A stretch of DNA of 23,048 bases from NCBI GenBank assembly GCA_021784715.1, contig JAJYHP010000084.1, positions 1 through 23,048 of the forward strand. The letters are read 5' to 3'. A program made the translations under genes and the position numbers. This document shows positions 4,559-8,384 of this stretch, in pieces. The notes under the pieces were generated by a model that worked only from the letters and a program-made list of their open reading frames with translations, searched no databases and had not been told where the DNA came from. Source of the DNA: a bacterium. GTDB taxonomy: Bacteria > Eremiobacterota > Eremiobacteria > Baltobacterales > Baltobacteraceae. The first letter of the stretch is position 1. Each line of letters begins with the position of its first letter.

Positions 4559-5997
4559 GCCGAACCCTCCTTACCGTCTTTAATTTCGATTCCGCAACGC
4601 GCAAGCGCATCGCGGAGGCGATCGCTGCGCGCCCAATCTTTGCTCGCACGCGCGGCGAGTCGTTCGGCGATAACGCGGTCGAGCGCCGCGCGCGCATCGT
4701 CGATTCCGTCGAGCCACGGCTCGGCGATCTCCGAACGAAGCGCGAGCGCGAGATCGGTCGGCAACGGAAGCTCCTCCGGAGCCGCCATCCAACGCTCGTC
4801 AGGTTCGATGCCTAAGAGATTCAAGACGGTGCCGAGCTCGCTCAAACGCTCCCGCGCGTTGCCGTCGGCGGGGGTACTCGCGGCGGCGAGAACCTCTCGT
4901 AACGCGGCAGCGGTGTTCATATCGTCGTCGAGCGCCGCGACGACGCGCGCCGTGAGCGCGCCGCCGGTCGCCGTCGCGCCGTCACTTCCCGCTGCGGCCT
5001 CATGCAACGCCCGGTAGTCGCGGCGGAGGCGCTCCAGCGTAGCGACCGCTCCCGCCATCGCCTCCTCGGTAAAGTTCATGACCTTTCCGTAGCCGGTACG
5101 GAGGAAGAGGAGGCGAATCGCTTGCGGATCGTAACGGTCGAGCACATCGGTAAGTGGTTCGAAGTTGCCGAGCGATTTACTCATCTTTCGATTGTCGAAG
5201 AGCAGCAGGCCGCCGTGCAGCCAAAATTTCGCCATCGGCGGCCGTTCCATCAACGGTTCGCTCTGCGCGATCTCGTTTTCATGATGGGGAAAGATCAAGT
5301 CGGCCCCGCCGCCGTGAATATCGAAGCCGGTTCCCTGCGGATCGAGCAGTGCGTGCGACATCGCCGAACATTCGATATGCCAGCCCGGCCGCCCGTCGCC
5401 GTATGGTTCGAACGGCCAATGCGGTTCGCCGGGTTTTGCGAATTTCCAGAGAGCGAAATCGAGCGGTTCCTCCTTCGCCTCGTCGATCTCGATACGCGCA
5501 CCCGCTTCGAGCTCGTCGATATTACGATTAGAGAGCGCGCCGTAGCGGGCGAACTTTCCGACCCGATAATAGATTCCGTCGCTTGCAACGTAAGCATAAT
5601 CGCGCTCGATCAAGGCAGAGATCGTTTCACGAATCTGCGGAATGAAGTCGGTCGCATACGGCTCTTTGTCGGGTTCGCGCACACCCAAGCGACGCATGGA
5701 GCTTTTGAAGTCGGCATAATATCCGGCGACGATCTCGCGCCACGATGTGCCGAGCCGATGCGCGGCCGCGATGCTCCGGTCGTCGATATCGGTAACGTTC
5801 TGCACGTAGGTGACCCGATACCCGGAGAACGCAAGATACCGGCGCAGGATATCGAAAAAGAGAAACGAGCGAGCGTGCCCGAGGTGCGCCTGCGCCGACG
5901 GCGTGAGACCGCAGACATAGATGGAGACCTCACCCTCGCGAATCGGTTGAAACGTTTCGACGCGGCGAGTCCGCGTGTTATAGAGCTGCAGCGGCAT
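4540..5997 (-). CDS. cysS: Cysteinyl-tRNA synthetase
   Basis: A class Ia aminoacyl-tRNA synthetase that charges tRNA-Cys. The 485-residue product is of normal length. It shows the HIGH-type motif as HLGH (38-41), the KMSKS loop (271-275, followed by LGNF), and the zinc-site residues Cys29, Cys210 and the FPHHENE cluster (236-242) used to recognise cysteine. The C-terminal part (after about 300) is the DALR/anticodon-binding region. The start at 5997 overlaps the end of cysE by 20 bases and the stop overlaps rlmB, so translation is probably coupled. Its place next to cysE, which makes the cysteine precursor, follows the conserved cysE-cysS pair of Firmicutes. Confidence 0.97.
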   Translation of the reverse strand: MPLQLYNTRTRRVETFQPIREGEVSIYVCGLTPSAQAHLGHARSFLFFDILRRYLAFSGYRVTYVQNVTDIDDRSIAAAHRLGTSWREIVAGYYADFKSSMRRLGVREPDKEPYATDFIPQIRETISALIERDYAYVASDGIYYRVGKFARYGALSNRNIDELEAGARIEIDEAKEEPLDFALWKFAKPGEPHWPFEPYGDGRPGWHIECSAMSHALLDPQGTGFDIHGGGADLIFPHHENEIAQSEPLMERPPMAKFWLHGGLLLFDNRKMSKSLGNFEPLTDVLDRYDPQAIRLLFLRTGYGKVMNFTEEAMAGAVATLERLRRDYRALHEAAAGSDGATATGGALTARVVAALDDDMNTAAALREVLAAASTPADGNARERLSELGTVLNLLGIEPDERWMAAPEELPLPTDLALALRSEIAEPWLDGIDDARAALDRVIAERLAARASKDWARSDRLRDALARCGIEIKDGKEGSAWSVVR

Positions 5998-6658
5998 CGT
6001 CGTTTCCTTGCGAACGTTCCAACGCCCGTAGGCGCCCTTCGAGTTGAGCTACGCGCGTCTGGAGCTGTGCGATTTGGACGGCATCGGGATCGGGCATGAC
6101 GACGCGCGGGGGTTCGCCGGCATCGCGAACGGGCTCACCGTCGATAAAAACAACCCGCCCGGGCACGCCGACGACCACCGCATTCGCCGGGACGTCGCGA
6201 ACGACGATCGAGCCGCCGCCGATCTTCGTGTTCTCGCCGATGGTAATCGCACCGAGCACCGCCGCGTTGACGCCGACAACGACATTCCGCGCGAGCGTCG
6301 GATGACGCTTGCCGTGCGAGAGACTCGTGCCTCCGAGTGTGACGCCCTGATAGATCGTGCAATCGTCGCCGACCTCCGCCGTCTCGCCGATCACGACACC
6401 CATGCCGTGGTCGATGAAGACGCCGTTGCCGATCGTCGCTCCCGGATGGATCTCGATCCCGGTAAGAAAGCGCACCACGTGCGCGAGCCACCGCGGGAGC
6501 AATGGAATCTTCCAGAGATGCAAAATGTGGATGAAACGATGCGCGAGCAACGCGTGAAAGCCGGGATACGAGAGCAGCACGTCGATCGGCCCGCGCACCG
6601 CCGGATCGCGTTCGAGCGGGGCGCGAAAATCCGCTGCGATAGTCTGAAAGAAACGCAT
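5978..6658 (-). CDS. cysE: Serine O-acetyltransferase CysE
   Basis: CysE transfers acetyl from acetyl-CoA to L-serine, giving O-acetylserine, the carbon skeleton for cysteine. The 226-residue product is the short form. It has a small helical N-terminal domain (about 1-65) and a left-handed beta-helix of hexapeptide repeats (about 66-165) with the family signature around IDHGMGVVIGETAEVGDD, a GGTSL turn and GKRHPTL. The last 30 or so residues (around QIAQLQTRVAQLEGRLRALE) look like a coiled coil instead of the usual short tail that binds CysK, so cysteine-synthase complex formation is uncertain. It starts immediately after the stop of the upstream small gene (0 bases) and overlaps cysS by 20 bases. 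Confidence 0.95.
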   Translation of the reverse strand: MRFFQTIAADFRAPLERDPAVRGPIDVLLSYPGFHALLAHRFIHILHLWKIPLLPRWLAHVVRFLTGIEIHPGATIGNGVFIDHGMGVVIGETAEVGDDCTIYQGVTLGGTSLSHGKRHPTLARNVVVGVNAAVLGAITIGENTKIGGGSIVVRDVPANAVVVGVPGRVVFIDGEPVRDAGEPPRVVMPDPDAVQIAQLQTRVAQLEGRLRALERSQGNDDAAAAL

Positions 6659-7204
6659 CTACTGCGGTCGCTTTCCGTGGATCGGCTCGAACGGCGCACC
6701 GTCGGGGCCGAATGCAATCGGTTCCAGACCACGACCGTGCAACAGCCGCGCGTTAATCGCCCCGATGCGAATCATGATGCGATCGTGGCCGAGTAACGGG
6801 AAAAGCAGTTCGAGCGGCACGTCGTCGCGCAGTCCGGTGAGCGCCATACGAACGCTGTCGACGGCATCCTCGGCTCCGAGACCGAACTCCTCGCCGATGA
6901 TCGGAAGGTCGTGAGCGAGCGGCAGCCCCCGCAACTCGGGCTGAGCATCGACATATTGCGCGACGGCATCGAGAAAAAAGAGTACCTCGCGAGAGCGTAG
7001 ACGCTCGAGTTCGAGCGCCGGTACGACGCAGGATTCCGCTCGCAACGCAAGCACGAGCGGCCGGGCGCGGTCGAGATCGACGAGCCGCTCGCCGTACGCT
7101 TCGAGGAAGGTCTCGATCCAACGGTACGCCGCATCGGGAACCGGACTCTCCAAGAGGCCCCACTCCTGCATCCTGCGCGCAAGCGCGGTTACGTTTGCAT
7201 TCAC
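6659..7204 (-). CDS. Stand-alone GluRS-type anticodon-binding domain protein (no catalytic domain)
   Basis: This 181-residue protein aligns by eye only with the C-terminal all-helical anticodon-binding domain of bacterial glutamyl-tRNA synthetase. The best match is residues 109-151, where VRMALTGLRDDVPLELLFPL is followed by LLGHDRIMIRI. Bacterial GluRS has VR.ALTG....P.LFE...LLGKER...R at the same place. The N-terminal part (ETFLEAYGERLVDLDRARPL) resembles the GluRS segment before the FFF element. There is no HIGH, KMSKS or Rossmann fold. It sits between ispF and cysE, exactly where full gltX lies in Bacillus. It overlaps the ispF stop by ATGA and is followed directly by cysE, so it looks like an intact, selected gene. 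It may be a split GluRS part, a tRNA-binding accessory protein or a neutral remnant. The domain call is fairly sure; the function is unknown. Confidence 0.7.
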   Translation of the reverse strand: MNANVTALARRMQEWGLLESPVPDAAYRWIETFLEAYGERLVDLDRARPLVLALRAESCVVPALELERLRSREVLFFLDAVAQYVDAQPELRGLPLAHDLPIIGEEFGLGAEDAVDSVRMALTGLRDDVPLELLFPLLGHDRIMIRIGAINARLLHGRGLEPIAFGPDGAPFEPIHGKRPQ

Positions 7205-7683
7205 GGCTCGATCTTCTCCACGCTCGCAACGGCATAGACGGCGATCCCCGTTCCGTCACCGGTATACCCCATACCCTCGCTACTCTTTGCTTTTACACTC
7301 ACGGCACTTGCATCGACGCCGCATCGAGCGGCAAGGTTGCAGCGCATCTGCTCGGTATAGGTCGCGAGCCGCGGGCGCTCTACGACGATGGTCGCATCGA
7401 TGTTGCCGACCCGATAGCCCCGTTCGCGCACCAAGTCCACACATGCCGCCAAGAGAACCAACGAATCGGCATCCTTCCAGCGCCGGTCGCTATCGGGAAA
7501 ATGCGCTCCCAGATCGCCCAGCGCGAGCGATCCGAGGAGAGCATCGGCGACCGCGTGCGCCAGCGCGTCGGCATCGGAGTGCCCGAGCGCTCCTCGCTCG
7601 AAGGGGACATCGACCCCACCTAAGATCAAGCGACGTCCCGCGACAAGCCGATGAGCGTCGAACCCGTGGCCGAAACGTATCAT
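7201..7683 (-). CDS. ispF: 2-C-methyl-D-erythritol 2,4-cyclodiphosphate synthase IspF
   Basis: IspF closes the cyclic diphosphate in the MEP pathway to isoprenoid precursors, releasing CMP. The 160-residue product is full length. It starts MIRFGHGFDAHRL with the metal ligands Asp9 and His11, then shows GGVDVPFERGALGHSDAD with the third His, the HFPDSD loop, and the C-terminal KAKSSEGMGYTGDGTG signature. The reading frame stays open upstream, but the ATG at 7681-7683 is the right start: it matches the family N terminus and forms an ATGA overlap with the ispD stop. The stop overlaps the next gene in the same way. Confidence 0.96.
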   Translation of the reverse strand: MIRFGHGFDAHRLVAGRRLILGGVDVPFERGALGHSDADALAHAVADALLGSLALGDLGAHFPDSDRRWKDADSLVLLAACVDLVRERGYRVGNIDATIVVERPRLATYTEQMRCNLAARCGVDASAVSVKAKSSEGMGYTGDGTGIAVYAVASVEKIEP

Positions 7684-8384
7684 CGCAAAGACTCCGCGCG
7701 GCGCGCGCGCGCGGAAAGAATCGCTGCGGCGAGATCGCGGTCGCATGGTTGCGTCACTTTCAAATTCCGCGCCGTCGATGGAACGACTGAACAGCGAACG
7801 CCGAGCGCTTCCAGAAGCGCGATATCGTCGGTCGCCTCGATCCCGGTGCGCGCGGCGCGTTCGTGAGCCGCAAGCAGATCCGTATAGGTTGCAAACTGCG
7901 GCGTCTGCGCCGCCCACACGTTCTCGCGCGGCAACGTCGCTTGGATCACCGTCGATCCATCCTCGGTTTTTTTGAGCGTATCGACGACGCGCGCCGCGAG
8001 CAGCGCCGCCCGTCCCGGCGCAATCTCGCGCATCCCGTCACGAATATCCTCGGACGTTACGCAAGGCCGTGCTCCGTCGTGGATCGCTACCGCGTCGCAA
8101 CGCCCTGCAAGGTGCTGCAGACCGTTCCAAACGCTCTTTTGGCGCGTCGCTCCACCTGCGACCAACGGTAAGAAACGCTCGCCGAGAATCGGCCGCGCGA
8201 CGCGTTCGACCTCATCGAACGCCTCCGGAGCCGTCACGACGACGAAAACTTCGAACGCGGCCACCGCGGCGAGCGCATCGAGGGACCACGCGAGCATCGG
8301 ACGACCGGCGATCTCGACCAATTGTTTGAAGCCGCCGAAACGCCGGCCTTCACCCGCCGCCACCACCAACCCGGCCCAGCGCAC
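7680..8384 (-). CDS. ispD: 2-C-methyl-D-erythritol 4-phosphate cytidylyltransferase IspD
   Basis: IspD joins CTP and methylerythritol phosphate in the MEP pathway. The 234-residue product carries the nucleotidyltransferase signature AAGEGRRFGGFKQ near the N terminus, the HDGARPCV motif, AAQTPQ, a TDD acidic site, and the closing NLKVTQPCD. The start is a GTG at 8382-8384 sharing one base with the TAG of the upstream PIN-TRAM gene, and the stop overlaps ispF by four bases. The ispD-ispF pair after a yacL-type gene is the Firmicutes arrangement. Confidence 0.96.
   Translation of the reverse strand: MRWAGLVVAAGEGRRFGGFKQLVEIAGRPMLAWSLDALAAVAAFEVFVVVTAPEAFDEVERVARPILGERFLPLVAGGATRQKSVWNGLQHLAGRCDAVAIHDGARPCVTSEDIRDGMREIAPGRAALLAARVVDTLKKTEDGSTVIQATLPRENVWAAQTPQFATYTDLLAAHERAARTGIEATDDIALLEALGVRCSVVPSTARNLKVTQPCDRDLAAAILSARARRAESLR

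Follow-up and report, generated by a model that had tools for sequence, protein, structure and literature searches.

In a family of uncultured bacteria (family f1, to which the DNA studied here belongs), the catalytic half of a spare glutamyl-tRNA synthetase (GluRS) has decayed and been lost, probably more than once, and its anticodon-binding domain (ABD) has been kept. We identified one such free-standing ABD in the window (the whole stretch of DNA analysed, 23,048 nucleotides), in a compact cluster between ispF and cysE. The features of the window that matter here are:

6659..7204, minus strand: stand-alone anticodon-binding domain of GluRS (181 aa, start codon GTG)
6746..7204, minus strand: ABD core, residues 1-153, predicted to be all-helical; R40 and R119 align with R358 and R435 of Thermus thermophilus GluRS
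6680..6745, minus strand: final part of the last helix plus the C-terminal tail, residues 154-175 (LLHGRGLEPIaFGPDGaPFEPI), almost invariant across family f1; pLDDT about 74 in the predicted structure
7201..7683, minus strand: ispF, overlapping the ABD gene by 4 bases
7680..8384, minus strand: ispD
5978..6658, minus strand: cysE, starting immediately after the ABD stop codon
4540..5997, minus strand: cysS
2054-2521: four tRNA genes, Thr(ggt), Gly(tcc) and Tyr(gta) on the minus strand and Thr(tgt) on the plus strand

The 181-aa protein contains the C-terminal helical anticodon-binding domain of GluRS and lacks the catalytic Rossmann domain with its HIGH and KMSKS motifs, the start of its gene being overlapped by ispF. 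It scores 10.9 bits against the gltX profile TIGR00464 (cut-off 289.95) and 14.2 bits against PF19269 (Anticodon_2), below the curated cut-off of 23.6; most of the listed homologues carry PF19269 in precomputed Pfam annotation, and the full-length protein of lineage B (see below) in G014 scores 38.1. Structure comparison of the modelled protein indicates that the GluRS ABD fold is retained, with the domain borders and the ALTG...LLG signature of the known domain (PF19269; residues 323-468 in T. thermophilus); R146 is shared with the ABDs of all three GluRS lineages described below (A, B and C), and R119 with those of A and B. The protein differs from a GluRS ABD in having no catalytic domain, in 38 private invariant residues, in an extra conserved tail and in being acidic. 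The copy in the closest genome (G001) is 98% identical. The preliminary description had taken the protein for a GluRS ABD standing alone and for the mirror case of YadB (GluQ-RS), and we agree with it on both points: YadB is likewise one GluRS half with a gene of its own, but it is the catalytic half, an enzyme without ABD, whereas the window protein is the anticodon-binding half, which contains no catalytic site.

Pairwise scores and a tree divide the GluRS proteins into three lineages, A, B and C. In the lineage tree (calculated without five near-copies of C), A (13 rows) and C (22 rows) each form one clade (support 99 and 100, respectively), and the 22 rows of B fall into one clade (99) that also takes in two unassigned rows; nine rows were left out of a separate tree that includes the ABD and B genes (six near-identical ABD genes of genus g1, G040_B, G046_B, and G049_B). 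The outer relatives, families f2 and f3, have both A and B, with A adjoining glmU and B full length behind ispF. B was directly behind ispF in all nine f2 and f3 genomes inspected (G038-G042, G044, G045, G050, and G051; contig ends split B in G041 and cut it in G040), and also in the f1 genomes G014, G015, G032, G035 (where it is split), and G093. In two other genomes of the phylum, the GluRS does not directly follow ispF: in G057 it lies at a distance of about 1.1 kb, and in G059 on different contigs. As had been proposed, the ABD gene sits in the slot of gltX (lineage B in these relatives); it descends from that gltX. The next gene is glmU after A in the four loci tested and after C in the one tested (L089 (G001), L077, L084, L082, and L103); since this neighbor is common to A and C, it seems that the distant GluRS C replaced A at its own locus, and in most of family f1 it appears to have taken over A's position. 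The best solved relative of C is a Pseudomonas enzyme, and the HIGH motif of C reads HVGT in G001, a form that a section of PMC3927822 assigns to the alpha/gamma GluRS group acquired by transfer.

We also looked for a catalytic partner, since the protein had been suggested to be one half of a split GluRS working with a separately encoded catalytic half. G001 and other carriers encode a single additional GluRS (lineage C), which is full length and includes an ABD, so that the gltX of these kin genomes is neither absent nor catalytic-only. The one separate catalytic piece seen in the kin genomes is a contig-cut second GluRS of unsettled type in the ABD-only genome G012 (L184, C13), whose frame ends after the catalytic part, and nothing like it was seen in other ABD-only genomes; in G019, a contig ends within a C-like piece of 61 residues. 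A catalytic-only gene of the YadB type was found above the cut-off in 0 of the 99 f1 genomes, with a profile that works, as it detects YadB genes in two f2 genomes (L247 (G038) and L248 (G041)). On the evidence of these kin genomes a split enzyme is extremely unlikely, even though the protein corresponds precisely to the ABD half, with the domain border as its limit, and the ABD-only genome G012 has the catalytic-only piece just mentioned. An extra GluRS-like frame of 561 aa, 47-52% identical to C, lies at L232 (G125:C18). GlnS was likewise above its cut-off in 0 of the 99 f1 genomes, and GatB was found in 40 of the 42 genomes searched (f1-f3). With no GlnS above the cut-off and GatB found in most genomes, GluRS C presumably charges tRNA-Gln as well, and on these gene contents Glu-tRNA-Gln is presumably made in these genomes.

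The ABD profile matches 69 of the 99 f1 genomes. Of the 99, five have a motif-intact B, eight have a B of full length but with broken catalytic motifs, 57 have only the ABD, and 29 have neither. The 57 are the 69 matching genomes minus the four with intact and the eight with broken B that match (the ABD of G032 falls below the profile cut-off, and G035 is split by a contig end); for genomes assigned by frame length, the ABD-only status means an open frame of at most 381 aa, too short for an additional catalytic domain, and longer frames were inspected directly (508 aa in G019 and 403 aa in G103). The genomes with motif-intact B (G014, G015, G032, G035, and G093) have A and lack C. In G093 (L228; a 63% complete MAG) this B shows a frame break in the ABD, either genuine or from assembly, and A is assigned by identity only. 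All broken-B genomes belong to genus g9 (G122-G127, G129, and G131, seven of them being G061-G067), and so do three ABD-only genomes (G018, G128, and G130). C is matched at no less than 57% identity in 91 of the 94 genomes that lack an intact B, in some of them only by fragments; G125 matches C at 52%, and G006 and G077 (84 and 68% complete) have no C match. The 29 genomes with neither ABD nor B, some of them far from complete, include 18 of 18 in genus g45 and 8 of 8 in genus g19; the ABD gene, which these two genera and a few more genomes do without, is thus not essential and is dispensable over long times. A peptide-pattern scan of genome contigs with two profile patterns gave 54 loci (45 ABD-only, seven broken B, and two intact B), labeled, with two exceptions, as Eremiobacterota/Eremiobacteria, Vulcanimicrobiota, WPS-2 or plain bacterium. 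The exceptions, L167 and L169 (G017 and G025), are labeled Rhodospirillales and group with the rest in trees; their names are probably wrong.

The broken-B genes (L168:3089-4558, L151, L173, L174, L177, L178, L180, and L227) come from eight genomes of the one genus. The APSPTG, EDTD, and KLSKR motifs are broken in seven of these full-length genes and in an eighth (G125). In the seven aligned proteins, for example, APSPTG is replaced by APAPVG, PS-AAT, PSPAR or APSSTG, and EDTD by DDA, DDT, EDG, GDT or DDL; KLSKR appears as -GEHL, PAKDD, LSARD, a gap, LSRQH or LSEGD. HIGH has become AFGV in L151 and is also lost in G125. About 46 consecutive residues of the catalytic domain are missing from the seven aligned proteins; caution is needed here, as B of G015 lacks about the same stretch and yet keeps its motifs. 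The glutamate--tRNA ligase profile still recognizes most broken-B proteins in part. The ABD and tail of broken B are intact, with 64-67% identity to the window protein, and seven of the genomes also carry C. Judging from the motifs, broken B probably cannot charge tRNA.

The two halves of these genes evolve very differently. The ABD is under purifying selection, as had been supposed: among ABD-only genes of genus g1 and the window, Nei-Gojobori dN/dS has a median of 0.075 and a range of 0.034-0.15 (55 pairs from 11 sequences, with dS above 1 in several comparisons with the window), and no internal stops occur in the listed ABD copies. In broken B the catalytic part changes faster than the ABD, with a ratio of catalytic to ABD dN of 1.49-3.19 (median 2.03; all 21 pairs of seven genes, the eighth, from G125, not being among them), compared with 0.21-0.41, or about 0.3, in six hand-chosen pairs of ordinary B. 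The dN/dS of the broken-B catalytic part is 0.20-0.58, so evolution there is not simply neutral. Among A, C, and f3 B, none of 520 pairs has an ABD identity that exceeds the catalytic identity; for B of G014 and G035 the two values are 73.9% (ABD) and 73.0% (catalytic; length-weighted from 68.8% over 221 residues and 83.0% over 94). In 252 of 276 genome pairs, conservation is higher in the ABD-only protein than in the ABD of C, and in 5 of 276 it is higher than in the catalytic part of C; 66 of the 181 positions of the ABD-only protein have one residue in at least 97% of 151 proteins. A slowly decaying, functionless remnant would fit the origin from a redundant enzyme and the complete absence of the gene from the 29 genomes mentioned above, but it is very unlikely given this degree of constraint and the survival of the ABD where the catalytic part was deleted. 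Decay with accelerated change, which the preliminary description had named as evidence against its reading, is found in the catalytic half in genus g9 and not in the ABD.

Two gene trees bear on how often the catalytic part was lost. In the ABD tree (eight of the 54 scan loci, ten having been chosen and two lost to the motif filter, besides the broken-B loci; seven near-copies, G032 B, and all f3 B left out), the broken-B genes form one group (86/95) nested among ABD-only genes, with G018, G029, L181, and G027 as neighbors (forks 88/51, 99/87, 96/86, and 98/85). Forcing all ABD-only genes together makes this tree 31 log units worse with an AU p of 0.067, so that a single ABD-only clade, and hence one deletion, is compatible with the ABD tree at the 0.05 level. 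The C tree (without four near-copies) is separate evidence: the ABD-only genome G018 pairs with the broken-B genome G066 (98/99) within a clade of eight (100/100), and G029 is the next branch. Because both trees intermix ABD-only and broken-B genes, the catalytic part was probably deleted repeatedly and the ABD kept; at least three deletions are likely. The sequences themselves show the three states, namely B, broken B, and the lone ABD, and the order of these is read from the trees. The distance from the ispF stop to the equivalent of window residue 1 is -11 to +5 bases in many genomes, 20-29 in some, and 56-73 in six; the exceptions are G026 and G025 (ispF run-on), L181 (3.2 kb), and G018 (no ispF match). 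Leaders such as MTILDYSQPPF are present in five of the six genomes with 56-73 bases (G029 has none), and this short likeness to the start of B (MTRLDYDVPQR in G015) may mark them as its remnant. The ispF frame extends past the ABD gene start by 567 bases in L028/L169 (G025) and by 124 bases in L025/L175 (G026).

A regulator of the neighboring cysteine or isoprenoid genes, another role put forward earlier, would be in keeping with the tight coupling to ispF and cysE in the window and with a cysE match at 82 of 86 loci and ispF upstream at 75 of 86 (some genomes counted twice). This role is very unlikely, however, since the gene order is the ancestral order of gltX itself and the coupling is not constant. 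Although ABD-only genes in family f1 otherwise occupy the slot behind ispF, no ispF match was found in the upstream sequence covered for seven broken-B genes, ispF is about 3.2 kb from the gene in G125 and L181, and no cysE match was found behind the gene in L100 (G018), L147, L178, L181, and L229 (G128). In L100, L178, L229, and L181, the whole stretch from the ABD or broken-B gene to cysS is without a cysE match. Where the ABD is missing, ispF is followed by cysE at short distance (G024, G028, and G031; three of three g19 genomes inspected), the distance being at most about 175 bases in six of the seven g45 genomes inspected; in the seventh, G078, about 476 bases without an ABD match separate the aligned parts of ispF and cysE.

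The conserved residues point to a surface peculiar to the family. Among 147 aligned ABD-only proteins, a single residue reaches at least 95% at 73 positions (the conservation alignment took in 116 of 120 listed homologues; alignment A1 consists of the window protein and 29 of the 120), and 38 of the 73 are family-specific, the same residue occurring in fewer than 30% of A, C, and f3 B. Of the 38, thirteen fall within residues 55-94 and twelve within the tail (155-172). This tail is largely missing from the other classes, most A, C, and f3 B having nothing that aligns with it; B of G041 (f2) has part of it. All 38 are present in seven of seven broken B and in B of G014, and 37 in B of G035. As motif-intact B already has these residues, the special surface predates the loss of catalysis, and so, on this sequence pattern, did probably a second function of the ABD.

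The positions that align with R435 and others of T. thermophilus GluRS are ones we take to be anticodon contacts. Of the 31 ABD-only genes, 29 have R at the R435 position; the K426 and R417 positions are not retained. The R358 position, described as an anticodon contact in a section of PMC3927822, is R in 23 of 31 ABD-only genes, 13 of 13 A, 27 of 27 C, and 0 of 22 B, although the alignment may be off by one here. These residues, the retained fold and the presumed making of Glu-tRNA-Gln speak for the main rival of the reading we favor, a tRNA helper acting in trans, in which the ABD would bind the anticodon arm of tRNA-Glu or tRNA-Gln and present it to, or shield it for, GluRS C or GatCAB. Set against it are the net charge of about -9 (pI 5.0), more acidic than the ABD of C (+0.4), the loss of K426 and R417, the privacy of 38 of the 73 near-invariant positions to the family, and the fact that C has an ABD of its own; we regard such a helper as possible but tentative. 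More doubtful is a version in which the ABD became autonomous with a function that arose while the enzyme was intact, and acts in trans by, for example, steering C or GatCAB between tRNA-Glu and tRNA-Gln.

We lean, by a little more than an even chance, toward an adaptor with a private conserved surface. The sequences support the first part of this reading: the gene is the ABD of a second GluRS (lineage B) that stood in the ispF-gltX-cysE slot, the distant GluRS C now lies where A used to be in family f1, and the catalytic part of B decayed and was deleted, probably in several lineages independently, with the ABD and its C-terminal tail remaining under purifying selection meanwhile. In the second part, the ABD would have gained an aminoacylation-independent job while B still had its catalytic motifs, and would now do that job alone as a non-catalytic binding protein. 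Its working surface would be the family-specific face (residues about 55-94, the last helix, and the tail), and its putative ligand a translation partner, with or without a tRNA in the old anticodon groove. Selection on the ABD and its survival through the deletions indicate that it is useful without aminoacylation, and its retention after loss of the catalytic half suggests a separate job. We infer both the adaptor role and the inactivity of broken B from sequence comparison, which found no partner, ligand or phenotype of the ABD. Also weighing against this reading are the dispensability of the gene, the AU result of the ABD tree, the remaining constraint on the catalytic part of broken B, and the position of GluRS in G057 and G059.

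Other stand-alone proteins derived from aminoacyl-tRNA synthetases are HisZ, AlaX, Trbp111, and Arc1p, in which a module or paralogue is reused without charging its tRNA; they differ from the ABD in fold and in the synthetase concerned, and Arc1p and Trbp111 are tRNA helpers in trans for other synthetases. Searches of the full-text literature (open-access papers) returned no paper on a free-standing GluRS ABD, as judged by title or the start of the abstract. The GluRS2 enzymes and the proposed mobile C-domain (PMC3927822) are alike in that a second GluRS is involved and the ABD and catalytic part evolve apart. In the sections of that paper considered here, isolated GluRS catalytic halves (YadB) are said to be rampant in bacteria and are the basis for separate movement of the two domains; mobility of the C-domain is deduced from trees, and the isolated N-domain (YadB) is the only one cited there, whereas here an isolated C-domain exists. 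If the ABD did become autonomous, it would be the isolated C-domain that models of GluRS domain shuffling assume. Within one bacterial family, the intact-motif enzyme, the full-length protein with broken motifs, the lone domain, and nothing at all are visible as stages, and the surviving domain is, in the ordinary GluRS compared, the faster-evolving of the two. This opens to testing the way in which a domain of a synthetase acquires a second function ahead of the displacement of its enzyme.
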